A DNA stretch of 64,000 bases from Onthophagus taurus (taxonomy: Eukaryota; Arthropoda; Insecta; Coleoptera; Scarabaeidae): the NCBI RefSeq assembly GCF_036711975.1, contig NC_091966.1:33673501-33737500 (forward strand), given 5' to 3'. Within the stretch, counting starts at the first letter, position 1, and every line of letters begins with the position of its first letter. This document shows positions 1-47,500 of the stretch, piece after piece. A program made the translations under genes and the position numbers. The notes beneath the pieces are model-generated. The model was given only the letters and a program-made list of their open reading frames with translations, searched no databases and was not told the origin of the DNA.

Positions 1-469
1 ATTATTTCACTTGATAAATATTTTGAAAAAAAATTTCGATGCTTGGATTCAAGATCCATTTAATATTATCGAGTTATCTTGTGATAACAGTTTGAAAGCA
101 AAATGTGGCCGCATAGAATTGGAAGAATTTTAGGTCTTAATGAATATCCCCATCTATGTTTATTGGTGTGAAGCTGTGTTTTGGACGGTATCAAAAAGCA
201 AGCATAGAGCAAAAATCAATTGTGCAAATATTTAAAAACATTCCGATGCTGCATTAAATATTGAGGGTGCGTCATGGAAGAGTGATCTCCTTGTCGCTCC
301 ATTAAGTGTTGGTGATGCTACTAATCGCAGTACTCTTTGCAATTAGCCTTGAAATATTGAGATATTAAACGTTACACAATCTATGAGTTCCAATTATGAC
401 GAAATTGTCAATTTTGTATAGCTTTGCAATTATAAAGCTTCTTAATTTAAAACTGATCCTATCCGCATA

Positions 470-960
470 GGACACAAATGTTATTTTCAAAAAGCAAATC
501 ATTGAAATTAAGGATGAGGTTCGAGATTTAAAGCAATACTCTCGTAGAAGCAACCTCGAGTTGCAGGGCATCTCAGTGAAGGGGAATAAGAACAACGTTC
601 TAGGTACGTATTAATCGTGTCCGTTATGGAACTAGAACAGACTTTATTTCTACACCTCGAGCTATCGTGGTTCGTTTTTGCAATCATTTTGCCAGGGATC
701 TTCTGGCTTCTGCCAAGCTAGTAGCATTTCGGTTTGCCAAATCCACCTCCTAGGATGATCTTAATCTCTGACCGATATGTCATGAAGAGAGATAATGTGG
801 TTCGTTTTTGCAATCGTGTTGTCACTGATATTCTTACTATTCATTAGCTAAACAAACGTTTTATTTCTCTTGTCCTCTCTATTGAAGGCATCTTTAAACG
901 TTACTTCATTCAAAAAGCAACTCACGCCTGAGAACAATTTTTTTTTTTGAGCATCGTAAG
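470..960 (+). pseudogene. LINE ORF1-like remnant
   Basis: The plus strand around 490-590 reads as a coiled-coil stretch ending in DLKQYSRRSNLELQGIS. This matches the conserved junction between coiled coil and RNA-binding domain in ORF1 proteins of insect non-LTR retrotransposons. Further on, around 650-720, RAIVVRFCNHFARDLL fits the RNA-binding part of the same protein. Stops and frame changes separate the pieces, so it is dead. A 19-base stretch (tggttcgtttttgcaatc and its flank) occurs near 670 and again near 799, which suggests an internal duplication. I see no clear feature in the first 360 bases. Confidence 0.5.
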
Positions 961-1269
961 GTGAGCTACCAAGAAGAAAGGTTACAAGTTCATTTGAAAG
1001 TGTGATTGTACAGTTTATATACGCCATGACTAGGAAAGAGTGGGAATCACTAGTCTAAACATTTTAATGTAAATTTCAGTTTACATATTAATTTTTTTTG
1101 AAAATTGTGTATATTTCTTTTGAGATTATTTATATACTTTTTATATTTCATTCAAAATTATTACGTAAATCGATTTAATTTAAATTTTCTTAATTTAAAT
1201 TCTCAATTCATACATAGTAGTAGTACCAAGTAGGTAATATTTATATCAGAACATTGCATTTCTCTAAAG

Positions 1270-1440
1270 TACATAGTATGTGTAGTTTATCGTGGGCGGA
1301 ATGGTATTATGAATGCGACCGTGTCACGTGATCAAAGCGCCCACTCGATATGGTGGTTAACGTGTCGCGTGGAATGCACCACCCACGTTAAAACGCGTTT
1401 AAACCAACGTGTCTATTTGTTACGTGTAAAGAGGATTAAA
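1270..1440. promoter_or_regulatory. GC-rich block with E-boxes, possible regulatory element
   Basis: This block stands out from the AT-rich surroundings by its CpG-rich content. It holds the palindromic E-box tcacgtga, several acgtg cores and GTGGGCGG / CACCACCC boxes. It has no open frame worth calling. It lies about 270 bases downstream, in minus-strand sense, of the candidate exon at 1705-1816, so an intronic enhancer is possible. A relic of a mobile element is the alternative. Confidence 0.25.
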
Positions 1441-1704
1441 GTTTAAAACAAAAAAAATACGTACAAAAATCTTTTACAAAATAAAAAAATAACACTTTTT
1501 TGGATTTTTGTAGATAATCCTATTATTTAGTGTTGAGTGAAAAAGGGTTAATTATTATTGTTTGTTATTACTACGCATCAATATGAATTGCAGATTTTAT
1601 TGGGATCATATGAATGGAAAATTTCATGATTTTCGTTTTCTTGGTATCAATAGACCATTTTCATGACTTTATTTCTTCGCATGAATGGAAGATTTTTTTC
1701 TTAC

Positions 1705-1816
1705 CTTTCTGCTACGACCGCAGCACAGCATATTGCGCGTACGCGATCGCCCGGACGTGATCTTGGTTCTAGCCAACTTCCGCCACTGCATACCAAATCA
1801 GCGCTCGGATATCATC
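1705..1816 (-). CDS. Candidate small coding exon with N-terminal Cys-Cys (partial gene)
   Basis: On the minus strand a strong acceptor (long pyrimidine tract, then TTTTAG at 1817-1822) precedes a 112-base CpG-rich exon. The exon ends AAAG at 1705 and is followed by the donor GTAAGAA. Two in-frame ATGs are present. The longer form starts at 1791 (MQWRKLARTK...), and the shorter at 1731 gives MLCCGRSRK, ending exactly on a codon boundary. A Met-Leu-Cys-Cys-basic start is the pattern of dually palmitoylated N-termini such as GAP-43, so membrane anchoring is plausible but inferred. Stops lie upstream of the first ATG in this frame, consistent with a first coding exon. The rest of the gene would lie to the left of the window, and a possible 5' non-coding exon lies at 8968 to about 9560. 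I do not recognise the gene. Confidence 0.35.
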
Positions 1817-2960
1817 CTAAAATAGAACAACAAAAAAAGAAGAATTGAAATTTTTTTGCTACAAAAATTATCATTTACAATCAAGAATTGTACAAAAAGT
1901 TTTCCATAAAGATAAAGTTTGTTCATCCTAACATCAATGCAGTGAATGATACTAACAAATAAAGTAAATATTTTTGTTCGACATCGACATAACAGTATGA
2001 TATCGTTAAGAAGTGAAATATATTTCGTGTTCATTAAAACTAATAAATTAGTTCATAAAAAGGCACCCAACAAATATCGACTAATTTTTGTGCTTGAGAA
2101 AGGATAAGATTCATTTTCTTATTATTTAGAACATTTTCTGGCCTTGACAATCATTATTTTTGAATCCGTTGAGACGTTTTTATTTGACCACGATATTTTG
2201 GACACATCGGATTTAATATTTTTATGATTTTCAAATATTTTTCAAACTTGTTTTAAGTCGTTTATTGATCCTGAATTCTCCTTAAGGTCTTTATTATCCG
2301 AGAGAGAGAAAGATTGAGATTATATGGAAGTTACGAGACACAAGGGATGTAATATTAACCTATAAACGTTATAATAACCTATATTAACCTATAACTTTTG
2401 CAGTGCTGAGAACTAATAATACTCGAACTGATAACGTTGCTTTGCAAAATTTACATATTTTTCAAATGTGAAGATGTCCCGTTACTCTTCAGTTGTAGCC
2501 ACATATTTAAACTCAAGTTTTTTCGGTTACTAAAATGCAGAAAAGACGTTGCCAAACATGGAAACATTATGTATGTACAGACCTGGAGAGACAAACAAAG
2601 GTTCAAAGTAGTACTGCTATAGCCGGCTTTCTTGGAACCATAATATCTCCATAAGTTATAACTCTCCATGTCTTCAACGATTCTTGCGCTGGAGAAAATA
2701 GAAATCTTAATCTAACAAGATTTCTCGTTACATTGACTATGATAGACCAATTTTCAGTTATTCATCAATATTTTCCGTTACGTGGTCATAGTTTTGTTAT
2801 TACCTTGTTATTGTAAGCTGAGCCGAATCTAGTTCTAAAAGAATGTGAAACCAATACGAAACTCCAAAGTACAAAAATCAAAAATTTCAAAGACTGATAA
2901 CCTCAGCATTAATGAAACGTTTGATTCCAAGACGATAAACGTTGGGTTACTATCCCGCTC
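1817..2960. other. AT-rich stretch without recognised gene
   Basis: Nothing coding is recognised. The short open frames here have no family resemblance. If the exon model at 1705-1816 is right, this is the 3' end of its upstream intron. Confidence 0.4.
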
Positions 2961-2964
2961 TATC

Positions 2965-3700
2965 TAATTTTTGATTGGACATGGACAAACATGTCATCAA
3001 ACATGCACATCCATTAAACCCAAGTCTCGGTTTGTAACACCCAACCCTACCCAACCCAAAGATAAACTTCTTCCATTTTGCACCACACAGACGAATTTTG
3101 TTCTTAATGACTTATGCATAGTTCGCAAAATTCAAAATTGCTCTTCAAGTATAAGGAAGTCGTCACGGTTTTTTAATAAAGTATATCACGTAGAAGATAT
3201 AAGGACAAATATACTTCTTTTATATAAAACGAGATGGTCTGTTTTAAAACTACTTGAATATTCGTATGAATACATTGCCAAATTATATAAAGATCATGCT
3301 AGGAATCCAGAATATGTCGCAGATACAAGAACGAAAGCTATGTGCGACAGAATCGCAATCAAACTACTTTGTTGTCATGGTCATAATAGCAAAGTACATT
3401 TCAAAAATAGAGTTTGTCGTTAATACTTTTCAAAGTGCTCTTGATGCTAAAAAGAAACATAGAAAGTATTAAAGGAAAACAATTCTTTAGAAACACAGAA
3501 AACAGAACGAAGCTTATTTTGCAACCTTGTATAAAAAAATTGTTGAAATATTTAATAAAATATAACAATAAGTCAAATTCAAATACAAAGATTTACGAAC
3601 CATATTTAGATGCTATTATATCTTCAATAACAAGCTGGTTTGAACAAAAAAGCTTGCTGCACCCACATGCTTTAACAATCAACATAATTGTTTAGCTATC
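2965..3700 (+). pseudogene. hAT (ZMYM1-like/DUF4371-type) transposase remnant
   Basis: Pieces in shifting plus frames follow the order of ZMYM1-like hAT transposases. Around 3150-3370 a KTRWSVLKLLEYSYEYIAKL segment resembles the conserved TRW region, and around 3560-3660 KIYEPYLDAIISSITSWFEQ resembles the later region before the C-terminal dimerisation domain. Several frame changes lie between them. No terminal repeats or target duplications were recognised. A better preserved relative lies at 48990-49835. Confidence 0.45.
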
Positions 3701-6700
3701 AAATATATTGATTGTTAAAAAATTCCAATTTGCCGAACAATTTTATTCTATAAAAAAACCTTTATGCAGAAACTGACAATTGGTTACAATATTGGTAAAA
3801 TACACAAATTACAACAGATTTAACATTCAACAACACTTAGAGTTAAGCTCAATCATTACTGTTTTGTGTTTTGCTCCAACAATTTGTTCCGTTAAAAGAC
3901 GAACACTTTGAGGAAAGTGAGAACGTAGCTTAGGTCTACAATTACAGTTACTTAATGAACTGTGTATGTTAAGTGTCTACCAGATAAAGTGAAGGACAGT
4001 GGTCAATTTTGCAATGATTTCTTAGATATTTCCGCACAGACTCAAAAGAAATTATGTTTAGCTTTTTCTCTTTCATAACTTTATTTTACTTATATTTCAG
4101 GATGTCAAATAAGCCGCAAGATCATTTACATGTCTTGTGATAATTTCACATCAGTCTGAAAAAAAAACATTTCTGGATGGATGCGATATCTAAGACTATT
4201 CAGTAAAAGAAAATGTTGGTATATGTATATCTTCTTAGACATTCTTAGACCTTTGAGGTCTTTTTATATCATGGACGGTGAAATAATTTGGAAATATTGT
4301 ATCTTCGACCGGACAGAAAGTAGAGAGGTTCAACTCATGCAATAATCAACTATAAGGATGCACAAGTTATCCTTGGTAATAAGATTTGAAATGTGGATCT
4401 GACCAACTGTGTAAGAGTATGATATGCAAAAAGTTTAATCAACATCACTACAAAATCAGAAATATCTTAGCTTATGGGTGTATTAGATAGGCTACTAACG
4501 TTCTGGGTACATTTGGTGATTTTGTAGATATCGCGGTTTTTCCTATAGACTATAGGCCTAGATGATTTTTTTTGAACAACGTGAAATCTAAAATCTCGAG
4601 ACCCAAAACGTTATCATTACTAAAATACACCTTTAAGGTTAACACAGAAAATATTCCACTTCTTATATAATCACAAGGAAACATCTGAAAAGAAATGTAA
4701 ACGGTTTTAGCACGCACTTTATTTCACGTGTATCGACTTGTGCTTTCATATAACCGTAGGAGAATGGAAACGTTTTTATTAAATGTTATGATTTTATAAC
4801 TAGATTGTTCCAAAAGCTATATATGGACAAAACATTGTGAGGTTTCTCGTTTCTTTTGCAACAACGTATTTATACGACGCTGGGTTTTCGGCTATAGCTG
4901 TAATAAAAACCGAATACAGCTCAAAATTCGATATGGAGTGTGAAATGAGAGCAACGTTAATGCTTAATAATTTTTTAAAATAGGTCATTTTCAGATATAA
5001 TAGCTAGTTACGCTAAATATTTATCTCTGTGTCGAAAAATATTCAACGCCTTTGTAATGTCAGTCACCACAGAGTGACTTTTGTTAACTTTTTCAAGTAT
5101 TTAGCATAGCCTTTCTCTCTCTCTTTAATTACAAATACGTATTGCCTTGCTTTCGCCTTTAAATATTTTTAGTAAGAAAGCATTACTAACTTACTTACGT
5201 CAAAAGTGATAACAGTAATCGTTAAATCAACAAAGATTTATTATTAATACCACATTTGTATGTTAACGTCATATATTATCAGTTATAATACTTCCCATAA
5301 TCGCGCAATATATATTCATAATAATACGATAAGAGTGAAATATGAACATTTTTACGAAGTTTTTTTTAACAGTTTACTAACACTTTAACTTCGTCATAAA
5401 TTAACAAGAGTGGTGTACACTCAACTTTCTAGAACTTTCATAAGACACTGATAATATGTACAACATTTTTACTTATTTTTCTAATTGTTTCTTCAAGTTT
5501 CACAAAGAAATGAAAGAAATTTTGCACCCTTTAATTAAATTTTTATTTTTACGAAAATTTATTGGTGTAGTATTTTTTCTTTAGTTCCTTTCTTCTTGTT
5601 AATTTAATACCACTAAAAGTGTGTATAGAATTAATGGTAAGTACGTTATGATTTATAAAGTATGGTTAGCCGAATATCGTCCCATTTAATTTTTTTGTCA
5701 GGATTTATGTGTGTGCGCTACATAAAGTATTCCATCAAATTTTATGGATTGCGGCTCCGCTCATTTGTACTCTTTATTAACTGGGTAGTACACACCACCT
5801 AAACTGAGGTTATATATTTCATATAGAGACATTTAGGTACGACATCTTTGATTATATAGTATGTCGCTGTAAGCTAAGATATTAATGAATAAATTGTAAG
5901 TTTATTAACTATAATCTAGTAGATTTGTATCCATACCTTATGGTATAAGGTTTTATTTCGAAGATCCAACAACATAACAATTTTTCTTAACAAGAATTAC
6001 AGTTTTAAGAACAAAGTAACATATGTATATATTAATGTATAGATTCTGTAAGGAAGTATACGAATTTATCAAGAACGATTTTTGAATTAAAGAATTAATT
6101 ATAACGAATTAATGATAATATGAAGAAACAATTCTGGAAATGATACCAACAGGGTTATTAGAAAACAACTCTTTTTACCTTGGATCCTACTAATACGTTT
6201 TTGTGAAACTGAGTCTCATTCAAAACTAGACTTCAATATTAATGTTTGGATTGGTATCTTTGATACGTGTATGTGCCCATAAATTAGTGCTATTCACCCA
6301 TCCCGATAAGGCATAGAGTATCTGATGTTTATCTTCATTCGAGCTACAAATAGAACCATCCAAGACTTAGACATTATCATTACAACACAGCTGACAGAGA
6401 TGATCTCAAGAAGAAAACCACTCATATGTAGCCGATCTTGTGATCGCCCATCCACAACCCAATTACCAACTGTGTCTTTCACACTCACTCTTTGATATCG
6501 ATCGTTGGTTATCCAAACAGTTGATATTTGGTCAGTATGATAGTTTCACCGCTCTGTCTGCCGTGTTTTATTCAAAATTTTCACGAGTTCTTAGTCTCTG
6601 ATTAAATCATACATTGAGCTTCCACTTCATACTGATCGTATTCTTTTGACTTCATCACTCAAACATCCGTTATCAAAAAAATCATGCTTAGGAGTTCTTA

Positions 6701-21150: not shown

Positions 21151-21385
21151 GTACCGCGTGGTTTATTTGAAATGACATATCAGCTTATATCTCAAAAACA
21201 AAAACTCGAATCGAAAAAAGTTTCAAGTAAACATTTTTTGGTGAGAAGGGGGACACATTGTACACATGAACAGAATTTTTTTCAGGGTTGCCTAAAGGCC
21301 CTTCTGACGTCATTTTTATTTTTTCTAATGGCACATACTTTTTTCTTTCAAAGTCTTAAACAACTTGACAAACTGATAACTAAGG

Positions 21386-21990
21386 AATGTTACGTAAGGT
21401 TAGTTTTGTTTACAAACATTAATTATAGCGTGAAGTTTTCTTTAGTAATTAGTAATGCCAATCATAGCGTGAAGTTTTCTTTTGAAATGCCAATTAAACC
21501 GTGAAGGAATGTTACTTAAGGTTAGTTCTGTTTACAAACATTAATTATAGCGTGAAGTTTTCTTTAGTAATTAGTAATGCCAATTATAGCGTGAAGTTTT
21601 CTTTTGAAATGCCAATTACACCGTGAAGGAATGTTACGTAAGGTTAGTTTTGTTTACAAACATTAATTATAACGTGAAGTTTTCTTTTGAAATGCCAATT
21701 AAACCGTGAAGAAATGTTAGGTAAGGTTAGTTCTGTTTACAAACATTAATTATAGCGTGAAGTTTTCTTTAGTAATTAGTAATGCCAATCATAGCGTGAA
21801 GTTTTCTTTTGAAATGCCAATTAAACCGTGAAGGAATGTTACGTAAGGTTAGTTTTGTTTACAAACATTAATTATAGCGTGAAGTTTTCTTTAGTAATTA
21901 GTAATGCCAATCATAGCGTGAAGTTTTCTTTTGAACTGTCAATTAAACCGTGAAGGAATGTTACCTTAGGTTAGTTCTGTTTACAAACAT
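21386..21990. repeat. Tandem repeat of about 120-bp units inside the mariner
   Basis: The word aaggttagttttgtttacaa and the phrase catagcgtgaagttttctt recur. Units begin near 21386, 21506, 21629, 21714, 21834 and 21956, so most periods are 120-123 bases and one is about 40 shorter. Each unit also holds an internal half repeat (tagcgtgaagttttctt twice). Confidence 0.8.
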
Positions 21991-22401
21991 TAATTAATGT
22001 TTGTACATACGTTCACAGGATATTCCAGACATGTTTCAGACACATTTGTAGCGAAATGTTTCAAATGAAATGTTTCTGCTACATATTTTAATGATATTTC
22101 ATAAATATATATATAAATATATAAATTTCGTTGTGAAGATATCAATAAAATCAAAAATAAAATAACTTGTTTCAAAATGTAATTCAAAAATATTAATTAA
22201 TAAAAAAAACGATTTAATTAATCGTAAAATAATATTAAAATTTTTCTTAACTTTTGAAATCGTCTTAGAAAATTGATTAAAAAAATTTTTTTTAATGTTT
22301 ATAAATCGAGTAAATCCTGTTCTAAACCTTGTTTGAATGTGCGCTAACTTGCACGTGGGATAAAAATTTCAAGCGAAAAAATCATTGTGATCAAAGCAAA
22401 A

Positions 22402-23476
22402 ATGGAGCACTTCTCTACTCCACAGAAAATTCAGATGGTGTTAGCTTACGGTGAAAGTCGTGAAAATTTCGCTGAGGCCCATCGTATTTAAGTTCGAAAA
22501 TTTCCTGGGGAAAGAGCGTCTTGTCCTAATACTTTATATCGAATAGTTACAAAATTTCTGGAATGTGGTAACGTTGAGGAAAAAAGACGACCACGTGCAA
22601 GATCGGTTACGAATGAACAGAATCGAATAGCTGTTTTAGCAGCTCTAGATGTTAATCCTCATGTAAGTTGCCGTCAATTGTCAAAAGATTCAGGCATTTC
22701 GTTAACGAGTGTACATCGGATTTTGAAACTTAAGTTTCATCCGTATCATGTCTCTCTACACCAACAATTACATGGCGATGATTTCGAAAATCGTGTGCAA
22801 TTTTGTACTTGGGCTATGGAAAAATTAAGATTGAATGAAAATTGTTTCTTCAATGTACTATTTTCCGACGAATCCTCTTTCACCAATCACGACCAAGTAA
22901 ATCGTCATAACATGCACTACTGGTCACATGAAAATCCTCGTTGACTAAGACAAGTTGATCATCAAAAACCTTGGTCAGTTAATGTCTGGTGCGGCAATAA
23001 AATAATTGGACCTGTTTTTTATTGATGGCAATTTGAATGGCAGAAAGTATCGGAATTTTTTGTTGAACGATTTAGCGGTTTTGTTGGAAGACCTTACACT
23101 GGAGCGAAGACTTGCGCTATGGTATCAGCATGATGGATGTCCATCTCATTATGCTCTAGCCACAAAAGAAGTTTTAGACTAAATGTTTCCTGAAAAATGG
23201 ATAGGACGTAATGGACCGTTGAATTGGCCAGCTAGATCACCCGACTTAACTTCTCCCGATTTCTTTCTTTGGGGTTACCTCAAAGAGAAAGTTTACAACC
23301 AGGTTCCAACAACACCAAACGATATGAAAAACCGTATCAGAGCAGCTTGCGAATCAATAACTGAAGAAATGCTTGGGAATGTGCAAAGAACGTTTTCAAT
23401 GAGAATTCAGAAATGTTTAGAAGTGGATGGTCATCATTTTGAGCATTTAATCGATTTATACAGGGTAACTTTATAA
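22402..23476 (+). pseudogene. Mariner transposase pseudogene, DD41D
   Basis: The start MEHFSTPQKIQMVLAYGESR and the later VSCRQLSKDSGISLTSVHRI are the two helix-turn-helix DNA-binding domains. Catalytic positions are visible: the first Asp in VLFSDESSF (about 22862), the second in YQHDGCPSHY (about 23131), and the third in PDLTSPDFFLWGY. Counting residues gives 41 between the second and third Asp, the spacing of the rosa-like DD41D family. At least three in-frame stops (after AEAHRI, after ENPR, before MFPEKW) and a frame change after NVWCG kill it. It once cut and pasted the surrounding element. Confidence 0.85.
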
Positions 23477-31735: not shown

Positions 31736-32358
31736 CAGTTATACATAGTATAACAAACAGTTTCTAAGTAACCTTTTTAGTAGTAAAGACGTTAAAACTA
31801 TATTAACCACTAAGACAGAAGGGCATAAATGTATTATACGACGACGTCTTAAAAATATCACCAAGTAAGTATCAGAGAAAACATACTTTGAATGTAAACA
31901 TATACCGAAAAGAAGATAAATGAAGGAAATGCCCTGCTATTAGTTCTGCGCCTAACGTTAAAATAATCGATTATTAATTTTATTATTTGTTGGAACAGTT
32001 TATAAATGAAATGTGTGAAGTTGTTTGAAAATTACTGATCACAAGAGTTTTAACATGGTTATTGACAAAATCTTGCAACAATATCTGTTTTTAATTCAAC
32101 ACTGTTGCTATTTCATTGTTTGCTATTTCACAACTTGATTTAAAACTATCAACAAAACCATTTTTAGGCAAAGTTTTTTCTGAAATAAAATTGGCTTGGA
32201 TTTTCATTAAGAATGTTTCCACTATAATAACATATTAATTCATGCATTTCATGATAACAAGCTGTACTCTAAAAATTACCTAAAAATGAAAAAAGGTGAT
32301 CCTTTATAGAAATGTAGACAAACTTCACCCTCGCTAATAAATAACACTTCAAAATATG
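31736..32358. other. Unassigned DNA left of the foldback element
   Basis: AT-rich; no gene is recognised. The last nine bases, CAAAATATG (32350-32358), are the left target duplication of the neighbouring element. Confidence 0.4.
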
Positions 32359-33024
32359 ACGGTTGTGAAGTTAGCCATAGATTCTAGCCATAGATTTAAA
32401 AATCGAAAAATGATCGATTTTTGCAACTCGAAACGCAAATTAAAATTCATATTTGAGTTTAGCGGTCTTAGAATAACTCGTATACAAAAATTTACGGGGG
32501 GGTGTTTTCATTTAAGGGAGTAAAAAAATCCCAAAGTTGTGAACATCGCGTGCGCGCGTATACTATTCGACCAAAATCGAAAAATGACTAATTTCTGCAA
32601 CTCGAAACGCAAATTAAAATTCATATTTGTGTTTAGCGGTCTTAGAATAACCCGTATACAAAAATTTACGGGGGGGTGTTTTCATTTAAGGGAGTAAAAA
32701 AATCCCAAAGTTGTGAACATTGCGTGCGCGCGTATACTGTTCGACCAAAATCGAAAAATGACTAATTTCTGCAACTCGAAACGCAAATTAAAATTCATAT
32801 TTGAGTTTAGCGGTCTTAGAATAACTCGTATACAAAAATTTACGGGGGGGTGTTTTCATTTAAGGGAGTAAAAAAATCCCAAAGTTGTGAACATTGCGTG
32901 CGCGCGTATACTGTTCGACCAAAATCGAAAAATGACTAATTTCTGCAACTCGAAACGCAAATTAAAATTCATATTTGAGTTTAGCGATCTTAGAACAACC
33001 CCTATACAAAAATTTATGGGGGGG
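32359..33024 (+). repeat. Left arm of foldback element: 174-bp satellite units
   Basis: About 3.6 units. Landmarks per unit are gcaactcgaaacgcaaatt, acgggggggtgttttcat and gcgtgcgcgcgtatac. Successive landmarks are 174 bases apart (for example aatgactaatttctgcaac at 32583 and 32757). The last unit is more diverged and stops at about 33024. Confidence 0.85.
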
Positions 33025-33029
33025 TAATT

Positions 33030-33525
33030 GTAATTAACGTTTTTAAAACATATGCTTCGTTTTTGATTTTTTCTATTAATTCATCCTTAGAGTTGACTTG
33101 TGTAAACATAGGGTGTATGTTAGGTGTATGTTCTTTCATGTGGCCCCACACATAAAAATCAAGGGGCGTCAAATCAAGACTCCTTGCAGGCTATGGAATT
33201 AGATCTCCTCTCCCAATCCAACCATTAGGAAACATTTCATTTAATGAATTTTCAACATTTTGGGAATAGTGTGCAAGGCATTCATCTGGAAAGCCACATT
33301 ACATCTGTTTTCTAAAGGTACATGGTCAAGCAGGCCTATTAAATTGTTATGTAAAAATTCATTGTATGCTGCGCTAGTTAAACCATCCGGCAAAAAATAA
33401 GGACCAATTAAATTATTTCCAATGAGCCTCATCCACAAGTTTACGCAAAATTTTCTTTGATTGTTCATTTCCCTTGTTAGATGCGGATTTTGAATACGGT
33501 GAAAATGATTTAAGAATACAGTTCA
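33030..33525 (-). pseudogene. DD41D mariner transposase fragment inside the foldback element
   Basis: On the minus strand NNQRKFCVNLWMRLIGNNLI, then GPYFLPDGLTSAAYNEFLHN, then LTPLDFYVWGHMKEH appear in order but in different frames. This is the middle to end of a mariner transposase related to the copies at 22402 and 59370. The second catalytic Asp region is broken (the HDG motif is not readable in frame). Neither end of the mariner is present. Confidence 0.65.
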
Positions 33526-33604
33526 TTAATGGATGTCCGAGAATTGTTAAGAAAAACTAGTAACTTCCCAACGAAAAGAGTACAACATATACTATCAAAA
33601 CAAA

Positions 33605-34858
33605 TTTTTTACTTTGGTCGATGCATCAGACTTTGATATTATTGCTCTCAGTGAAACTTGGGTCAAGAAGAGCGTCCTAGACTACGAGATCTTTCCAGAC
33701 AGGTATGACGTTTTTAGATGTGATCGATCTTTCCATAAGGGTGGAGAGATGTTACTGGCTGTTAATTCCGGAGTTGCTACTTCGAATATCATGATTGCCT
33801 CCTGTCCTATTGAATCAATTGACTTGAAAGCTGTACGGATTGACTTTAAAAAGACGAAATCGGCCTTTAACATTGTTGTCTGCTATTTCCCACCTGTTAC
33901 ACCTGGAGGAATGTATGTATAGTTACACCTTCGATTACATTGAATCAATGTTGGATATGTCTTTGGATACCATAGTCATGGGTGATTTTAATATTGAAGT
34001 AATAATGACTTTCTGCAATTAAATAATGTAATGAATATCATTGATAGAACTCTTGATTTGATACTTGCTTCCTCAAACTTGAGTTTCAAATTAAACAGTG
34101 AGACTTTACATTGGTATGAGAAGATAATTACCAATCGGCATTACTACTTACTATTTCGGTAACGGTGCCTACACATTTGATAGCTCGAGATGTTATCTTA
34201 TCTGCCTGACATGTACGAGGTACTGCTTAACATCGACTGGACTCATCTATTTACGTTATCATCGGTTGAACAATACTGTAATGTTTTTTATGAAGCATTA
34301 TACAACGGCCTGGACGCTCACGTACTTAAATCTGAGGGCAAGCATGCAAGCTCGAAATATCCTGTATTGCATTCAATTAACCTAATAAGAATGCTTAGAT
34401 TAAAAAAACACCACCATAAATTGTATAGAAAAACTCATTGCAGATATCATCGCACAAGTTTATGTCAAATCTCTGAGGGACATAAGAAAAGAACCAAAAA
34501 ACGTTTGGCGTTTTGTTAATATAAGCAGAAACAATATAAGATCTCCAGGCTCTCTTAAGTGTGTCCGATTTGCCAACAGTAGTTAACTTATTTGTCGATC
34601 ATTTTGAGGCTATGTACTGTCCTGCATCATTTGGTAACCTACTGGTAACGATCACGCTGTTTATGATACTAATTCTGTCACCTTTGGTATCTCCGAAGTC
34701 AGTTACGACGAAATGGTTGAATCTTTCAAAAAATTCAAGACAAAGGCTACAATTGGCCCAGATGAGATTCCTACATTTTTAGTCAACGATTGCGCCCCTA
34801 CACTCTCACATCCGTTCTTACATATTTTCAACCTAATAATCAAAAACTCTGAATTTCC
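33605..34858 (+). pseudogene. Jockey endonuclease and start of reverse transcriptase, remnant
   Basis: The first frame gives DFDIIALSETWVKKSVLDYE, then FRCDRSFHKGGEMLLAVNSG, the N-terminal half of a Jockey endonuclease with its ETW motif. Then DTIVMGDFNIEV gives the GDFN motif. After many frame changes TKATIGPDEIPTFLVNDCAP (about 34735-34795) matches the start of the reverse transcriptase. The sequence breaks off at about 34858, directly at the right satellite arm. Confidence 0.75.
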
Positions 34859-34859
34859 A

Positions 34860-36451
34860 AGCGCGCAGGCGATGTTCAGAACTTTGTGATTTTTTTACTC
34901 CCTTAGATGAAAACACCCCCCCGTAAATATTTGTATACGGGTTGTTCTAAGACCGCTAAACACAAATATGAATTTTAATTTGCGTTTCGAGATGCAGAAA
35001 TTAGTCATTTTTCGATTTTGGTCGAACAGTATACGCGCGCACGCAATGTTCACAACTTTGGGATTTTTTTTCTCCCTTAAATGAAAACACCCCCCCGTAA
35101 ATTTTTGTATACGGGTTGTTCTAAGACCGCTAAACACAAATATGAATTTTAATTTGCGTTTCGAGTTGCAGAAATTAGTCATTTTTCGATTTTGGTCGAA
35201 CAGTATACGCGCTCACGCAATGTTCACAACTTTGGGATTTTTTTTCTCCCTTAAATGAAAACACCCCCCCGTAAATTTTTGTATACGGGTTGTTCTAAGA
35301 CCGCTAAACTCAAATATGAATTTTAATTTGCGTTTCGAGTTGCAGAAATTAGTCATTTTTCGATTTTGGTCGAACAGTATACGCGCGCACGCAATGTTCA
35401 CAACTTTGGGATTTTTTTTCTCCCTTAAATGAAAACACCCCCCCGTAAATTTTTGTATACGGGTTGTTCTAAGACCGCTAAACACAAATATGAATTTTAA
35501 TTTGCGTTTCGAGTTGCAGAAATTAGTCATTTTTCGATTTTGGTCAAACAGTATACGCGCGCACGCAATGTTCACAACTTTGGGATTTTTTTTCTCCCTT
35601 AAATGAAAACACCCCCCCGTAAATTTTTGTATACGGGTTGTTCTAAGACCGCTAAACACAAATATGAATTTTAATTTGCGTTTCGAGTTGCAGAAATTAG
35701 TCATTTTTCGATTTTGGTCAAACAGTATACGCGCGCACGCAATGTTCACAACTTTGGGATTTTTTTTCTCCCTTAAATGAAAACACCCCCCCGTAAATTT
35801 TTGTATACGGGTTGTTCTAAGACCGCTAAACACAAATATGAATTGTAATTTGCGTTTCGAGTTGCAGAAATTAGTCATTTTTCGATTTTGGTCGAACAGT
35901 ATACGCGCGCACGCAATGTTCACAACTTTGGGATTTTTTTTCTCCCTTAAATGAAAACACCCCCCCGTAAATTTTTGTATACGGGTTGTTCTAAGACCGC
36001 TAAACACAAATATGAATTTTAATTTGCGTTTCGAGTTGCAGAAATTAGTCATTTTTCGATTTTGGTCGAACAGTATACGCGCGCACGCAATGTTCACAAC
36101 TTTGGGATTTTTTTTCTCCCTTAAATGAAAACACCCCCCCGTAAATTTTTGTATACGGGTTGTTCTAAGACCGCTAAACACAAATATGAATTTTAATTTG
36201 CGTTTCGAGTTGCAGAAATTAGTCATTTTTCGATTTTGGTCGAACAGTATACGCGCGCACGCAATGTTCACAACTTTGGGATTTTTTTACTCCCTTAAAT
36301 GAAAACACCCCCCCGTAAATTTTTGTATACGGGTTATTCTAAGAGTGCTAAACTCAAATATGAATTTTAATTTGCGTTTCGAGTTGCAAAAATCGGTCAT
36401 TTTTCGATTTTTAAATCTATGGCTAGAATCTATGGCTAACTTCACAACCGT
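34860..36451 (-). repeat. Right arm of foldback element: 174-bp satellite units
   Basis: About 8.8 units in inverted orientation to the left arm. The acgcaatgtt landmark falls at 35041, 35215 and 35389, exactly 174 apart. Neighbouring units are nearly identical, differing by single bases such as cacaaatatg versus ctcaaatatg, which shows recent homogenisation. Because 174 is divisible by three, one minus frame stays open across six units (352 codons). I treat this as a by-product. Confidence 0.9.
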
Positions 36452-36460
36452 CAAAATATG

Positions 36461-37272: not shown

Positions 37273-40200
37273 ATGGGCAGTAAGTATTCTTCTGATTTTC
37301 TAACATTTAACCTAAAAATTGAGTACGTTTCTGTCAAGAATTTTCAAAAAACCATGAACATTAAACCCGCCACGCTGGGCAATTTTCTTTATTAATACAC
37401 CTTAATAGTTTATCGTGACCCGTTTTTAAATAATACCTTTTCTTAATTTGTTCCAGTTAAATTTCTTGAGGTTATAAAACCTTTTTGTAGCATTCTACCT
37501 GAAATTGCAAAACCTGAAAGAAAGGTGAGTTAGAATTTTTTTTCTTAGTGGTTTTATTATCTTATCTTTTGAAATTTCGTTTTCTTTTTAAGCATATGTT
37601 AGATTTTCTTAATGTATCTTATTTAAAAAATATATTTTTCATTGATGATTTTATCTAACAGATGGATTTTTGAAAAGAGTACATGTGGCACTTTATCTTT
37701 TTACTTTCCCTTATATACTAAATGTATTTTAAAGATATGATAATGTATAATTAAAATAAAATTATTGTTTAAGCCAAATACATCAAGATTTAAAATCAGA
37801 AATGAAAAATATATGAATATAGACATTATTTGTACATCAACTAACATTTGAAATGAACATGAACTAATAATGTTGTATAATCTTTTTGCTAGTTAATAAC
37901 ATAATTTTTAATACATTTGTATTTAGATTTAAGGTGCTTAAGGTTATAATACAACAATTACTTATGTTTATGTATATTTAATGATTCTTTTTATAGATTT
38001 TAGTAAATAGTTTAAATTTAATTCCTTTGTACAAAGAAAATGTATTGAATTAGGATTTAAAAAAATATGAATCATAAAACAAATCCAAATCAATCTCCAT
38101 TTATGAAAGTATGCAATTCTTATGCTGGATAAGATGTAAATTTGATGGAATCTGTACCAAGTCGTAATTTCTCCGCACATTCAAACCTTAATGCGACCAT
38201 TCGAGAACTGTATCTCCATAATATTTGCTTGCAAATCCTAATCTTCTGAACTTCATACCAAAGGAGTTTGATGTTTTAATATATTTTGAAATATAGCAAC
38301 AGTATTTTTCTATTTTGTTTGCAGAGGTTTAAACTCTCAGCATTTCTCTGAATACATTAAGGAGATAATAAGCTTTGAAGATTGCAATAACATCCTGAGC
38401 CATTGTTTCTAAAAAAGATGATTCTAGAAGATTCTATAAGATCTATTGTAACTTACGCCCTCCAAAAGTTTAGGACAATAGTTTCATTGTTATCAAAAAG
38501 GTTCTGTTTTGACATGATCCAAGAAGTACATCTCAACGGATTGTTATGGCTTGCTAACTTCCATATATTCCTTAAATTCTTAGTCCTGGGATAACCACAA
38601 TATTTTTGTGATGTATGACAAACGCGACTATTTATTTCAATGATTGTTGGTTTCAATCTTCATTAACCTGAAGATTCTCAAGCTGGATCAGTTTTTTTTG
38701 CTTCTTGCCAAGATTTCTTTTTGTTTTCTTTTGGGCACAAACGATTGTTTAAATTGTATGACTATTAGACCAAAAATCTTTATGAAATTAGATACTCCAT
38801 GAACGTATAAAGCTGTGAACCTTAAACAGAGGCAATCAAAAACCACATCTATTTATATTTGCGCCCTAATTATCTCTGATTGGAAATCGGCATCAACAAG
38901 GTTTTGCAAAATTCGCAGTGCAAAAACAGCGTTTAGGCGATACGTTGGGCTAAATACAGCTGAGCTTTATTTTTCAATTTACCGTCAATAAACAAGATAT
39001 CGTTTAACGACTTGCCAACGTCAGATCTGAAAGGGCCACACACCAAAAGACATAAACCACTTTGAGTTTGTTCAAATAAAACAAATTATTTGATTTAAGA
39101 CATAATAGTGAGGCATTTTAGGAGTTATACAAGAAGTTGAACCTTTTTTATTTTGAGCACCGTCAGAAACAAGAACCTACCAAAAAAATCTAGCTGGTCC
39201 AGTAAATGGTCCACAAGTAGTCGCGATTGCATCAGAATTTGGTGGCAGATTCTGTAAAGCTGTTGGATGGTAGCACTTTTAGTTAAAACCAGCAAAGCAC
39301 AAAAAATAATTCTCTTTCTCGAGGATATATTTGCCCCTCTTATCCAAAAAAAGAATCAGTTCCGTTTATCAGTATTGCATTGATCTGTATTATTACAAGA
39401 TCTACATCGACGGCTATCAATTGACACCGACACAAAGGTAACCACAACCGTTATTACCATTACAGCGTCTTGAGGAAGGATCATTAAATTGACAAGATAT
39501 GATAATCGACAAAAATCTTTCCCCTAGAATCTAAAGTTTATTACTTGAACAACTTAAGTTCGATCAAAAATATCTTCTATCATGGTGTGTATCTGATTCA
39601 ACGACACTACATCGATTCTGGAATGCTTCAGAAGCTTGTATACTTAAGCTAACTTGGGTTTACACAAGAATTCAAAGCTGATTTCTGATTAAGATCTAAA
39701 ACATCAAGCACAAACTTGATGTTTTAGATCTTAAGATCTTTTAAATTCTTAAGGTTTTGATTTTTAAAATTGACAACAACAGCTAGTGGTCAATCTAGTA
39801 CATTGTTTCAATTAGCTCGAGTCCTGTCAACAGATGTACAAGTTATTGCTAGATATTGTAGCCTATAGGGTTGGATTTCTACATGAAGTCGAGTTTCCTC
39901 AAGAATTTCAGTATGTTCTAAGATTGAAATCTTTCAATTGGATCTTCAGTAGACTCAAAAACCCAGTATAACGCAAGTCTCCTGTTCTTTTGAGTTCTGA
40001 AACTTTTGTTTTAGTTGTAGAATCGCTAAAATATTTGCTTGTGCTGTTTGAAATTAATTTGACACTTCATTCACTTGAATGCAGAACTTTTGCGTATAAT
40101 TAAAGAATCCCAAAATCGAAACCATATAATATGTGGTGAATATCATGGTCTCTATCTGATTCTACGACAACTTGATTTACTCAAAATTCTGGAATGTTTC

Positions 40201-43200
40201 AGAAGCTTGTATACTTAAGCTAACTTTTATTTACGCAAGAATTTAAAGTTGAATTCTGAAATATTGGGAGCACAAACATGATGTTTTAGATGTTGAGATC
40301 TGTTAAATTCTTAAGGTTTTGATTTCAAAATTGACAGCAACAGCTAGTGGTCAATCTAGTATATTGTGTCAATTAGTTCGAGTCCTGTCAACAGACGTAC
40401 AAGTTATTGCTAGGTATTGTAGTCTATAGGGTTGGATTTTTACATGAATTCGAGTTTCCTCGAGAATAGCAGAGTTTTTGAAGATTAGAATCTTTCAAAT
40501 AAAACTTCGGTTGACTCAAAAACCCAGTATAACGCAAGTCTTCTGTTCTTCTGAAACTTCTGTTTTAGTTTTAGAATCGCTGAAATATTTGCTTGTGTTG
40601 TTTGGAATTAATTTGACAATTCACTCACTTGAGTGCAGAACTTTTGTATATGATTAAAAAATTTTAAAATCGGAATTGATTAATTAGCATTTCTTTTTTC
40701 ATTATTTTTCTTGATAATGATTCAAGAACATTAATTATTATTGGTTTGAATCTTCATCAACCTGAAGATTCTCAATTGCTGGAAATTGTAGTCTATAGGG
40801 TTGGATTTCTACATGAATTCGAATTTCCTCGAGAATTTCAGTGTGTTCGAAGATTGGAATCATTCAAATAAAACGTCAGTTGACTCAAAACCTCAGTCTA
40901 ATGCAAATCTTCTGCTCTTTTGAGTTCTGAAACTTCTATTTTAGGTTTAGAAGCGCTGAAATATTTACTTGTGTTGTTTGGAATTAATTTGACAGTTTAT
41001 CCACTTGAATGCAGAATTTTTGTGTATAATTAAACAATTCCAAAATCGAAATTGATGAATTAGTTGCATGCCGTGGCAAAATATGATATATGATGCATAT
41101 CATATCAACTTTTCACTTAATATAGTTTCAAAAGTATACTGATGCCTCAACAAATGCGTGGCTTAAGTGAAGTGGCTTGCGGCAGTTGCTTACCTATGAC
41201 TGCATAGATATAATCCAAGTTTGATTTTTTTGTGTACCAGAGTTCTGATATAAATAATTTTTCATTGAAGGTTTTTGCGTTTACTTTTCGTATAATATAA
41301 ATTCAATAAAAAGCAATACTTTTTCTGGTCCTTTTCAATTTATTGTCTAACCGGTTTCGGCTTACGCCATCATCAGAGACATTAGAAACACATGACATTT
41401 AACGTGAGTTTTAATGTGTTCATATTTATAATTTTATATTGTATACCTTTGTGAAGCCATTTACATGAACAACTAAATGGAAAATAAGTTGCTAAAATCT
41501 AATCTATATTTCTAATGTCTCTGATGATGGCGTAAGCCGAAACCGGTTAGACAATAAATTGAAAAAGACCAGAAAAAGTATTGCTTTTGGATCAAACATG
41601 GATCAAACTCCCTTATCTAATTTACTTTTCGTGTGTTTTCTTTTCTCTAAAATCTCGTTGTATTTAAATAATAATGACTTAAATACAAGAACAGTATGGT
41701 TTAGGAACAAATTCTCTGCAAGTAGATTTGGGAAAAGTTATCAAGCACAGAATCACTTTGTTCATTCCCCAATTATTTCACGAAGTGTATCATTATTATA
41801 GTATCATATAAGAACAATTACAGCTGTAGATATCTTCGCTGGGATTTGTAAAGTTAAGTAAGGACTTTTGAACTAATTCCGAGTGAAATCATTTTTTCAA
41901 ACCTGATTCCTTGCGGTAAATCACCCAACAAAGACATGAATAAAGCTTTAATCATTTCTGGGAAACAGGTTGAATTGAAATACTTATCTTAGGATTTATT
42001 CTTGGATTCGATTTCCAGCTTGTCCACTCAATATTTCTTATAAATACGAGGTAAAACATGTCGCGATCAAGATTTTTAACATCTGTAAAAAATAACTTAG
42101 ATTTTAATTAAAGTTTTTCAATTTATAAATTTGTCCTATTTAAATTTGTTACAGATTCAATTCAGAGAGAAAGTACTATGGACTGCTATAACTCTATTTA
42201 TTTTCCTTGTGTGTTGTCAGGTAAATAATTTATTAATAAATTTATACAAAAAACTTTTATATTAATTAAAATTTTTTAAAATTTAGATTCCATTATTTGG
42301 AATAATGAGTTCAGATTCAGCAGATCCTTTCTATTGGATTCGTGTTATCTTGGCATCAAACAGAGGTACTCTTATGGAACTCGGAATATCGCCAATCGTT
42401 ACATCCGGACTTATCATGCAACTTTTAGCAGGGGCAAAAATTATTGAAGTTGGAGATAGTCCTAGAGATAGAGCGTTGTTTAATGGAGCTCAAAAATGTA
42501 AGTTCCAACTAATTGGTATTCCATTAAAAATTAATTTAAATCTTTTTAACAGTATTTGGAATGGTAATTACTGTTGGTCAAGCGATTGTTTATGTAATGA
42601 CTGGAATGTATGGAGATCCAGCTGAAATTGGAGCGGGAGTTTGTTTGTTAATCATAATCCAGTTATTTGTAGCTGGGTTAATTGTACTTCTTCTCGATGA
42701 ACTCCTTCAAAAAGGTTATGGATTAGGTTCTGGTATTTCTCTATTTATCGCAACAAACATTTGCGAAACGATCATTTGGAAAGCATTCAGTCCAGCTACT
42801 GTTAACACCGGACGTGGAACTGAATTCGAAGGAGCCGTAATCGCTTTATTCCATTTATTAACAACACGTCAGGACAAAGTTAGAGCTTTAAGAGAAGCTT
42901 TTTACCGTCAAAACTTACCTAATTTGATGAATTTGTTAGCGACGGTTTTAGTATTTGCTATAGTAATATACTTCCAAGGTTTCCGTGTTGATTTACCAAT
43001 CAAAAGTGCGAAATATCGCGGTCAATATTCGAGTTATCCCATCAAATTATTTTATACATCGAATATTCCGATTATTTTACAATCGGCTTTAGTATCAAAT
43101 TTGTATGTTATCTCACAAATGTTGGCGTTAAAATTCCAAGGAAACTTTTTGATTAATTTATTGGGAGTTTGGGCTGATGTTAGTGGAGGTGGACCGGCTA

Positions 43201-43631
43201 GAGCGTATCCTATAGGTGGTTTATGTTACTATTTAAGTCCACCGGAAAGCGTTGGTCACATTCTTGAAGATCCAGTACATGCGGTACTTTATATTATTTT
43301 CATGTTGGGTTCGTGTGCTTTCTTTTCAAAGACGTGGATTGAAGTTTCTGGGAGTTCAGCGAAAGATGTTGCTAAACAGTTAAAAGAACAACAAATGGTT
43401 ATGAGAGGACATAGAGATAATTCAATGATTCACGAATTGAATCGTTATATCCCAACAGCCGCCGCTTTCGGTGGGTTATGTATTGGAGCCTTATCGGTGA
43501 TGGCTGATTTCTTAGGAGCTATTGGTTCAGGAACGGGTATTTTATTAGCCGTAACAATTATTTATCAATATTTTGAGATCTTTGTTAAAGAGCAGAATGA
43601 AATGGGCAGTATGGGAGCGTTACTGTTTTAA
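37273..43631 (+). CDS. Sec61alpha: Sec61 alpha, protein-conducting channel subunit
   Basis: Exons are 37273-37279, 37457-37524, 42155-42220, 42287-42497 and 42553-43631. All introns are GT-AG, and the joined frame gives 476 residues, the usual length. The first exon codes only MG and one base. Hallmarks are [20 protein letters not shown] at the start, [20 protein letters not shown] (plug region), [40 protein letters not shown] and [20 protein letters not shown] near the end. It forms the ten-helix pore of the ER translocon for co-translational protein export and membrane insertion. No stop or odd residue is seen, so the gene looks fully functional. Intron 2 is 4.6 kb and full of repeats; the other introns are 55-177 bases. 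Confidence 0.97.
38330..39500. other. Sec61 alpha intron 2, degraded repeat-derived DNA
   Basis: The stretch 38436-38478 (tataagatctattgtaac, then ccctccaaa and gtttagg) matches the 3' end of the I-like LINE at 47967-48009, so a LINE tail fragment is present on the minus strand. A minus-strand peptide near 38990 ([16 protein letters not shown]) vaguely recalls BEL/Pao reverse transcriptase, but the evidence is too thin for a call. Confidence 0.4.
39578..41060. repeat. Direct repeats of about 570 bp in Sec61 alpha intron 2
   Basis: Copy 1 (39578-40120) and copy 2 (40142-40675) share cagaagcttgtatacttaag, acaacagctagtggtcaatc and aacccagtataacgcaagtc in the same order. A third, partial copy (40780-41055) shares tagtctatagggttggattt and the later words. 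Divergence between copies is moderate. No coding content is recognised. Confidence 0.75.
41344..41381 (-). ncRNA. Hammerhead-ribozyme-like motif, antisense to Sec61 alpha
   Basis: This is the inverted copy of the motif at 41516-41553. On the minus strand CTGATGA is at 41370-41376, the stem II hairpin at 41359-41369, GAAA at 41355-41358 and CCGG at 41351-41354. AGACA (41377-41381 on plus) and TGTCT (41344-41348 on plus) supply stem I. It has the same one-base insertion after the CTGATGA core. Confidence 0.5.
41516..41553 (+). ncRNA. Hammerhead-ribozyme-like motif, sense in Sec61 alpha intron 2
   Basis: The order is that of a minimal type I hammerhead: TGTCT (41516-41520), CTGATGA (41521-41527), a GGC-GTAA-GCC hairpin (41529-41538), GAAA (41539-41542), CCGG, TT, then AGACA (41549-41553), which pairs perfectly with TGTCT as stem I. 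Stem III would be only the self-complementary ACCGGT, which can pair properly only between two molecules, as in dimeric hammerheads. A T at 41528 is an extra base between the core and stem II and could weaken or abolish activity. Cleavage would be predicted before AGACA. Confidence 0.5.
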
Positions 43632-44196: not shown

Positions 44197-47100
44197 AAGT
44201 CATTTTTTTAATCTCAAACTTTATAACGTCATTTCCTGGTTACTTCTAAGAGTGTAGATATGGTTTATATCTTCAATGAAAGCTCAAAGTGTACACTTTA
44301 AGACGATGCAACATGACCTATATGTTTATTATATAATTTCGAAGGAACCCGAGCTTAAAACGTGATGTAAAATTCAATTAGTTGCGCTTTCTAAGCGTCA
44401 AATTTTAAAACACCATTTCTGCCATATTTCGAACTAAGAAACGATTTATATATTTAATGAAAGTTTAAAATGATGTAACATAACCCATATGTTAGTAATA
44501 CAATTTCAGAGATATTCAAATTACAAAAAACAATTTTGAACAAAATAAATTGATATCATTTTTTTAATCTCAAACTTTATAACGTCAGTTCCGGGTTACT
44601 TCTAAGAGTGTAGATATGGCTTATATCTTAAATAAAAGCTAAAAACGTGCACTTTAAAAAGATGCTATGTTTATTATACAATTTCGGAAGAACCCGAGTT
44701 TAAAACTTTATAAATTCAGTTAATTGCGCTTTATAAACGTCAAACTTTAAAATACCATTTCTTTCATACTTCTAAGAAATAAGAAACGATTTACATCTTT
44801 AAAGAAACTTTAAAGTATCCTCTTTAAAGTAATGTAACATAACCTGTATGTTAGTAATACAATTGCAGAGATTTTCAAATTATAAGAGATGTTGACAAAT
44901 AAAATAAGTTGATATCATTTTTTAATCTCAAACTTTATAAAGTCGTTTCCGGGTTGTTTCTAACAGTGAAGAAATGGTTTATATCTTAAATAAAAGCTAA
45001 AAACGTGTACTTTAAGAAGATGTAACATATGCTATATGTTTATTATATAATCTCGGAGGAACCCAAGTTTAAAACTATATGTAAAATTCAGTTAATGGTG
45101 CTTTTTAAACGTCAAACTTTAAAACACCATTTCGACCATATATCTAGGAACTAAGAAAGGATTTGTATCTTTAATGAAAGCTTAAAATGTCCTCCTTAAG
45201 ATGATGTAACATAACCCATATGTTAGTAATACAATTTCAGAGATATTCAAATTACAAAAAAAAATGTTGAACAAAATTAATTGATATCATTTTTTTAATC
45301 TCAAACTTTATAACGTCACTTCCGGGTTACTTCTAAGAGTGTAAATATGATTTATATCTTAAATAAAAGCTAAAAACGTGTACTTTAAGAAGATGTAACA
45401 TATGCTATATGTTTATTATATAATCTCGGAGGAACCCCAGTTTAAAACTTTGTAAAATTCAGTTAATTGCGCTTTTTAAACGTCAAACTTTAAAATACCA
45501 TTTCTGCCATGTCTCTAGGAACTAAGAAACGTTTTATATCTTTAATGAAAGTTTAAAATATCCTATTTAAAATGATGTAACATAATCTGTATGTTAGTAA
45601 TACAATTTCAAAGATTTTCAAATTATAAGAGATGTTGACAAACAAAATAAGTTGATGTCATTTTTTAATCTCAAACTTTACAAAGTCACTTCCGGTTTGT
45701 TTCTAACAGTGTAAAAATGGTTTATATCTTAAATAAAAGCTAAAAACGTGCACTTTAAGAAGATGTAACACAAGCTATACGTTTATTATATGATTTCGGA
45801 AGAACCCCAGTTTAAAACTTTGTAAAATTCAGTTAATTGCGCTTTTTAAACGTCAAAGTTTAAAATACCATTTTTTCCATGTCTCTAGGAACTAAGAAAC
45901 GTTTTATATCTTTAATGAAAGTTTAAAATATCCTATTTAAAATGATGTAACATAACCCATATGTTAGTAATACAATTTCGAAGATTTTTAAATTATAAGA
46001 GATGTTGACAAATAAAATAAGTTGATGTCATTTTTTAATCTCAAACTTTATAAAGTCACTTCCGGTTTGTTTCTAACAGTGTAAAAATGATTTATATCTT
46101 AAATAAAAGCTAAAAACGTGCACTTTAAAAAGATGTAACATAAGCTATATGTTTATTATATAATTTCGGAAGAACCCCAGTTTAAAACTTTGTAAAATTC
46201 AGTTAATTGCGCTTTTTAAACGTCAAAGTTTAAAATACCATTTCTGCCATGTCTCTAGGAACTAAGAAACGTTCTATACCTTTTATGAAAGTTTAAAATA
46301 TCCTCTTTAAAATGATGTAACATAACCTGTATGTTAGTAATACAATTTCAGAGATTTTCACATTATAAGAGATGTTGACAAACAAAATAAGTTGATGTCA
46401 TTTTTTAATCTCAAACTTTATAAAGTCACTTCCGGTTTGTTTCTAACAGTGTAGAAATGGTTTATATCTTAAATAAAAGCTCAAAGCGTGCACTTTAAGA
46501 AGATGCAACATAAACTATATGTTTATTATATAATTACGGAAAAACCCAAGTTTAAAACTATGTAAAATTCAGTTAATTGCGTTTTTTAAACGTCAAACTT
46601 AAAAATACCATTTCTGCCATGTCTGTAGGAACTAAGAAACGTTTTATATCTTTAATGAAACTTTAAAGTATCCTCTTTAAAATGATGTAACATAACATGT
46701 ATGTTAGTAATACAATTTCAGAGATTTTCAAATTATAAGAGATGTTGACAAATAAAATAAGTTGATGTCATTTTTTAATCTCAAACTTTATAAAGTCACT
46801 TCCGGTTTGCTTCTAACAGTGTAGAAATGATATATATCTTAAATAAAAGCTCAAAGCGTGCACTTTAAGAAGATGCAACATAAACTATATGTTTATTATA
46901 TAATTACGGAAAAACCCAAGTTTAAAACTATGTAAAATTCAGTTAATTGCGTTTTTTAAACGTCAAACTTAAAAATACCATTTCTGCCATGTCTCTAGGA
47001 ACTAAGAAACGTTTTATATCTTTAATGAAACTTTAAAGTATCCTCTTTAAAATGATGTAACATAACATGTATGTTAGTAATACAATTTCAGAGATTTTCA

Positions 47101-47500
47101 AATTATAAGAGATGTTGACAAATAAAATAAGTTGATGTCATTTTTTAATCTCAAACTTTATAAAGTCACTTCCGGTTTGTTTCTAACAGTGTAGAAATGA
47201 TATATATCTTAAATAAAAGGTCAAAGCGTGCACTTTAAGAAGATGCAACATAAACTATATGTTTATTATATAATTTCGAAGGAATCCAAGTTTAAAACTT
47301 AAACTTCAGTTAATTGCGCATTTTAAACGTCGAACTTTAAAATACCATTTCTTTCATACCTCTAAGAACTAAGAAATGATTTACATCTTTAACGAAAGCT
47401 TATTAGGGTTATATCTAAGAGAAACCGTCTATATCTCAAATGAGAGATCAAGATGTTTTCTTTAAGTAGATACAACATACCCTATACGTTTATAATACAA
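44197..47500. repeat. Satellite array with two-part higher-order units (about 365 bp)
   Basis: The phrase tttaatctcaaactttataa recurs near 44205, 44558, 44923, 45297, 45665, 46035, 46395, 46775 and 47135, giving nine units of about 350-380 bases. Each unit consists of two related halves of about 180 bases: one ends with tatgtttattatataattt, the other with tatgttagtaatacaatttc, and both start with a tcaaactt(t/ta)a word. The central units (45.6-47.3 kb) are most alike, and the edge units more diverged, as expected from unequal exchange. No coding content is recognised. Confidence 0.85.

Follow-up and report, generated by a model that had tools for sequence, protein, structure and literature searches.

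A dispersed foldback family in Onthophagus taurus with 9-bp target duplications and satellite arms that differ by whole units

The stretch of DNA analysed here, which we call the window, comprises 64,000 nucleotides of the Onthophagus taurus genome (C1:33673501-33737500) and contains a foldback element at 32359..36451. The element lies between two perfectly matching copies of its target-site duplication, CAAAATATG, both on the forward strand (32350..32358 and 36452..36460). On the left, a 40-bp terminal domain that contains a 13-bp duplication, TAGCCATAGATTC (32359..32398, forward strand), is followed by an arm of 3.6 units of 174 bp (32399..33025, forward strand) and by a core of 1836 bp (33026..34861, forward strand), which is 100% identical to the core of another copy, L058. 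The right side, on the reverse strand, consists of an inverted arm containing 8.9 units of the 174-bp repeat (34861..36411) and a terminal domain that is the inverted copy of the left one (36412..36451). The two tips show inverted identity over 55 bases, and the inverted pairing of 32350-33037 with 35773-36460 extends over 688 nt at 96% complementarity. Structurally, this is a foldback element, and long inverted arms of tandem repeats in variable number are common to its family. The foldback structure with tandem-repeat arms proposed in a preliminary description of the locus was thus borne out by the inverted 174-bp arrays; the exact inverted ends described there are real but were understated (12 bases instead of 55), and the arms are indeed unequal, the right one having been given as about 8.8 units.

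Judging from its sequence, the core is made up of captured or inserted transposon pieces and appears to encode no transposase of its own. Two short open frames at 33014..33522 (reverse strand) had no Pfam match, and we regard them as similar to the terminal part of a mariner-like transposase. Next to them is a predicted retrotransposon fragment (33551..34889, forward strand), whose only Pfam match, Exo_endo_phos with E = 0.21, was below the cut-off; none of the core frames of the window element had a Pfam match above it. This fragment is presumably derived from a non-LTR retrotransposon and extends from the endonuclease to the start of the reverse transcriptase. Its relatives elsewhere in the genome have 61-66% identity (e.g., at C6:21853880), and one of them is found in a 654-aa open frame.

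The element is located before a Sec61 alpha gene (37273-43631), and 822 bp separate it from the probable start codon of this gene at 37273, consistent with the start codon previously placed about 0.8 kb away. The position of the start was inferred from ATGGGCA followed by GTAAGT, with the next exon at 37459. Directly beyond the final coding stretch of Sec61 alpha, a 370-bp tandem array with 8.0 copies occupies 44464-47402, and in another tandem repeat, at 21382-21996, periods of 122 and 83 bp are mixed; no inverted ends of note were found at the other tandem arrays of the window. In addition, an open frame with helix-turn-helix matches (22492-22944) is probably a piece of a mariner/Tc1-like transposase.

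The tips of the window element's family (ACGSKTGTGAAGTTRGCC) are dispersed through the genome. A search of the whole genome (290.8 Mb in 33 contigs) with a 25-base tip, allowing at most 3 mismatches, returned 64 forward and 71 reverse places, 57 of them exact and the majority arranged as facing pairs 2-9 kb apart; the same pattern read backwards, which served as the control, gave 0 forward and 0 reverse places, and no tip place was found in viral contigs. Full sequence was read for 20 loci and one more, plus three loci of a sister family with 143-bp units, and further end pairs were read over 30 bases per end. Perfect 9-bp duplications flank 23 of the 29 end pairs of the 174-type family, while four pairs have one mismatch and two have no duplication. 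Two of these pairs, both on contig C13, are apparently one insertion within an inverted duplication of the contig, which reduces the count to 28 independent pairs, 22 of them perfect. They are found at C13:352704-355331 and C13:452525-455213, separated by 100 kb in a contig of 518 kb, and their flanks are reverse complements, reflecting either a genuine inverted duplication or an error of assembly. For both families together, 31 of 41 end pairs have a perfect duplication, and its length is exactly 9 bp in all 31 (the one-ended copy L064 is omitted from every duplication count). The flanking 9-mers were also cross-paired as a control, omitting three of the 41 pairs (L109/L110, L102/L007 and L008/L001): true left and right partners agreed perfectly in 28 of 38 cases, compared to 0 of 1406 cross-pairings, among which one agreed with one mismatch.

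Empty sites were observed as well. Copy L070 (C5:10206905-10210203) sits inside a 281-bp host tandem repeat, and its joined flanks, with one duplication removed, could be aligned without gaps to six neighbouring units at 92.5-99%, each with a single target (AAATTTTAA in five units and AAATTTTGA in one); this comparison is paralogous rather than allelic, and it concerns L070 and not the window element's own site. The joined flanks of L058 had one match elsewhere, at 83%. Taken together, the dispersed copies, their 9-bp duplications, which are mostly perfect, and the empty sites demonstrate the mobility of the family and support the earlier proposal that the structure moved as a unit.

A 28-base word of the 174-bp unit occurs at 253 places in the genome. 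Among the 100 places listed, 97 are in two-ended copies and three in a one-ended copy; hence, at these listed places, the repeat does not lie mostly in long arrays devoid of ends. No free 174-bp satellite was present among these listed places, and the seeding of satellite DNA by a transposon, which the preliminary description regarded as directly visible, is a possibility here and not a result. Four large copies, L067, L057, L064 and L078, were rejected as candidates for an autonomous element, as their size comes wholly or partly from other transposons. From their open frames, we take the inserts in the large copies to be LTR retrotransposons (BEL, Gypsy and Copia); that of L078 is flanked by two direct repeats of about 319 bp.

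Concentrating on near-identical copies, we found a single substitution over 3745 aligned bases between the window copy and L058 (C1:22491706), which are 11.2 Mb apart. Their cores are identical and their left arms are equal, and the right arms are set apart by a single 348-bp gap, equal in length to precisely two units, and have 0 mismatches elsewhere. The breakpoint of this gap lies within 124 bases of identical sequence, and no similarity was found between the flanks of the two copies over 1500 bp on either side. Similarly, the cores of L060 and L066 show 0 differences in 1799 bases, and the two copies are distinguished by one 348-bp (two-unit) gap in the left arm and 8 mismatches in 4578 bases; their right 300-bp flanks have only a weak 30-bp match, at non-corresponding positions. 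L056 and L058 have 1 difference in 1836 core bases, yet five left and four right units separate them. All 12 copies with a full core (a comparison that omits L057, L059, L062, L064, L065, L067, L069, L072 and L078) have different pairs of left and right unit counts. Across the 21 loci, arm length ranges from 0.35 to 17.9 units (at most about 3.1 kb), with a value of 0 in the one-ended L064. The phase of the arm-core junction is fixed in 14 of 21 loci for the left arm (n+0.57-0.60) and in 13 of 21 for the right arm (n+0.90-0.92); 7 of 21 left arms and 8 of 21 right arms are off this phase. A constant junction phase is as expected if units are gained or lost in register between a fixed tip and core. 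The arms of the 174-type family are recent, as previously suggested, and change by whole units.

The units themselves are homogenised arm by arm. In a comparison of 114 internal full 174-bp units, those within one arm were 98.5% identical when adjacent (82 pairs), in agreement with the near identity of neighbouring units noted before, and 99.0% identical when non-adjacent (220 pairs). Identity was 96.4% both for opposite arms of one copy (227 pairs) and for same-side arms of different copies (2915 pairs), and 95.9% for opposite arms of different copies (2997 pairs). As identity is high within an arm and opposite arms of a copy are no more alike than arms of different copies, the arms grow from their own units with no mutual correction. 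A two-base variant (C at 76, A at 123) dominates the long right arms of L058, L060, L061, L066 and L073. The units might conceivably act as extra transposase-binding sites; the resemblance of the tip to any part of the 174-bp unit was not significant (259 of 1000 shuffles score as high), and this idea thus has no sequence support.

The tip of the sister family (ACGCGTGTGAAGTTGGCC) has 54 exact places in the genome, and 38 of its first 45 bases are common to the 174-type tip, the match running into the first 174-bp unit. A 174 unit compared with a 143 unit showed no detectable kinship (an equally high score was reached by 865 of 1000 shuffles), and a tip copy inside one 143 unit was likewise not significant (780 of 1000 shuffles). 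Perfect 9-bp duplications are present in 8 of 12 143-type pairs, one pair has one mismatch and three have none; this family is more decayed than the 174-type family. Its cores are also different from those of the 174-type, with a reverse transcriptase piece (Pfam RVT_1) in L075 and a DDE_3 piece in L077, the latter presumably belonging to a Tc1-like kind of transposase and taken as captured or nested. An exact word of the 143 unit was found at 161 places; among the 100 listed, 89 have a listed end no more than 6 kb away, whereas the other 11 lack one at this distance; the 143 units may thus also occur on their own, or next to tips that have decayed. Seven places of this word, in both orientations and none near a listed tip, are clustered at C3:16876062-16877685. 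In L076 (C5:9983266-9988403), 30.7 units of 143 bp form a single array (372-4764), which has a higher-order period of 429 bp (three units) and is capped by inverted tips, without target duplication.

The sister family illustrates that mobile tips can persist while the adjoining satellite is wholly replaced. A bolder hypothesis, which we put forward tentatively and consider rather doubtful, is that the 45-base tips are a portable cassette repeatedly taking on unrelated satellites, and that transposition resets the unit number at nearly every jump. If so, transposition itself, and not slow exchange at fixed sites, would make the satellite arms, and L076 would represent the passage from transposon to satellite.

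Transposase profiles of three kinds, MULE, Merlin and FLYWCH, were searched against the genome, and no Mutator-type transposase with the ends of the foldback element was found among 16 MULE matches and 130 of the 135 ends counted. None of the 130 listed ends has one of the 16 MULE or 38 Merlin matches within 12 kb; the partner was thus not found, is absent, or has more diverged ends. Many of the Merlin matches contain an open frame some 300 aa long. The 16 MULE loci, covered over 3.2 kb each, do not possess these ends, and the ends of the commonest MULE group in the genome look different from the foldback tips. Three MULE loci, L040, L045 and L047, have a common stretch, TGTCTAGGTACACGCTAAC, which is probably their end. 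The single-copy MULE L052, read over 9201 bp, is without tips and matched only itself when used as a genome query; a hit in it with 8 of 25 mismatches to the tip was taken as chance. The FLYWCH profile, a domain typical of Phantom transposases according to the available part of the Tm1 report (PMC3169594), had three genome matches, on C3, at places where, compared by eye, no read copy is located. Merlin-type matches whose open frames measure about 310-340 aa were observed, for example, at C1:25333777-25415796, C8:9647991 and C11:9626272 and are perhaps a living family.

By analogy with the Mutator (MULE) superfamily, in which duplications are 8-11 bp and mostly 9 bp long, the 31 of 41 pairs with exactly 9 bp suggest that the window element is probably of Mutator type. 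Of the earlier label 'FB-like (Mutator-type)', the foldback form therefore stands, and the second half has the 9-bp duplication as its single basis. The mover could instead be a transposase of another superfamily, either Merlin or one outside the profiles used. Merlin elements also give 9-bp duplications, their range being 8-9 bp in the portion of the literature available (PMC8101967), and the 38 Merlin-type matches, with their many long open frames, add to this argument. However, Merlin ends start with GG in the same source, and because the foldback tips begin with ACG in all 29 174-type and 12 143-type pairs, on at least one side, they do not have the terminal GG of Merlin; together with the distance of all Merlin matches from the listed ends, this makes a mover other than a MULE unlikely.

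Two other explanations concern the structure itself. It might be argued that recombination inverted a satellite array and that the ends and the duplication are coincidental, so that nothing moved, since inverted tandem arrays can arise in this way as a matter of general knowledge. The dispersed copies with the same tips, the 31 of 41 perfect duplications and the empty sites already refute such an array inversion, to which we give practically no credence. Alternatively, the differences in unit number might be mainly a product of assembly collapse or expansion, as the unit counts come from assembled sequence alone; but the arms are short (at most about 3.1 kb for the longest, with 17.9 units, and 0.35 units for the shortest), the window copy and L058 do not have the same unit-specific variants, and the junction phases are kept in most copies, all of which render this explanation very improbable.

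The interpretation that we consider likely is that of a non-autonomous foldback DNA transposon, mobilised by a trans-supplied transposase, most likely that of a MULE, with arms that change by whole units in register. Such a transposase, most likely of the Mutator (MULE) kind, would recognise the tips of roughly 45 bases and insert the element by cutting the target with a stagger of 9 bases. Both the tips and the core of 1.8 kb would be inherited unchanged, and 174-base units would be gained or lost whole and in register, by recombination or copying slips within one arm, at a rate presumably much faster than that of point mutation. The origin of satellite DNA from transposons has usually been inferred from old, scrambled remains. 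The copies described here are recent, have identical cores and are set apart by entire units in one arm only; point mutation can therefore serve as the yardstick for how fast, and in which direction, a satellite grows, and these copies offer a clean clock for such growth.

The Drosophila FB/NOF elements have the foldback form, the repeats in the arms and the 9-bp duplications seen in the window element. No NOF-like gene was present in any copy read here, FB being compared by description only. A close likeness in the published accounts, as far as these were available, is to Tetris of Drosophila virilis (PMC4079207), a foldback element with long TIRs containing variable tandem repeats (about 220 bp, compared to 174 bp here), a middle domain that is variable in make-up and without coding capacity, duplications of 8-10 bp, no autonomous partner found, a suggested membership in Mutator, and a pair of allelic copies distinguished by the duplication of one unit. 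On the other hand, the outer flanking domain of Tetris reaches 866 bp, as opposed to 40 bp in the window element; its tips and units share a 37-bp stretch, whereas no significant similarity exists here; three structurally complete copies are described, compared to 29 end pairs read here; and its units form free satellite arrays (39 unit-only contigs), unlike the 174-bp unit among the 100 listed places. Tetris has already been described as seeding a satellite, and a foldback element in this role is thus not new.

Nor is the family the first of its kind outside Drosophila, since foldback elements with 9-bp duplications have been published for root-knot nematodes. These Tm1 elements (Mutator/Foldback, PMC3169594), in the part of the report available, share with the present family composite TIRs with unequal repeat numbers at the two ends, mostly 9-bp duplications without a consensus, and non-autonomous copies; they differ in their units of about 14 bp and asymmetric 7-bp tips, and a Phantom-type MULE transposase, not seen in the family here, is encoded by some of their copies. 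Galileo of Drosophila, again from a partial view of its description (PMC3573991), has long TIRs whose tandem repeats are unequal in number at the two ends of a copy, but it belongs to the P-element superfamily with a known transposase, and its repeats of about 210 bp are confined to one subfamily, in two or three copies. Muta1 of Aedes aegypti, in the accessible sections of its report (PMC5225508), is an insect MULE with duplications of 8 or 9 bp and non-autonomous copies with a variable number of subterminal repeats; in contrast to the present family, an autonomous copy is known, and the duplications here are exactly 9 bp in all 31 perfect pairs. In view of Tetris, Tm1 and Galileo, as far as their accounts go, this kind of element is already known. 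In the accessible portions of the open-licence literature on foldback elements, satellites and MULEs, neither one tip in two families with unrelated arm satellites nor unlinked near-identical copies differing only by whole units were met with. The evidence for whole-unit arm change in the 174-type family is unusually clean.
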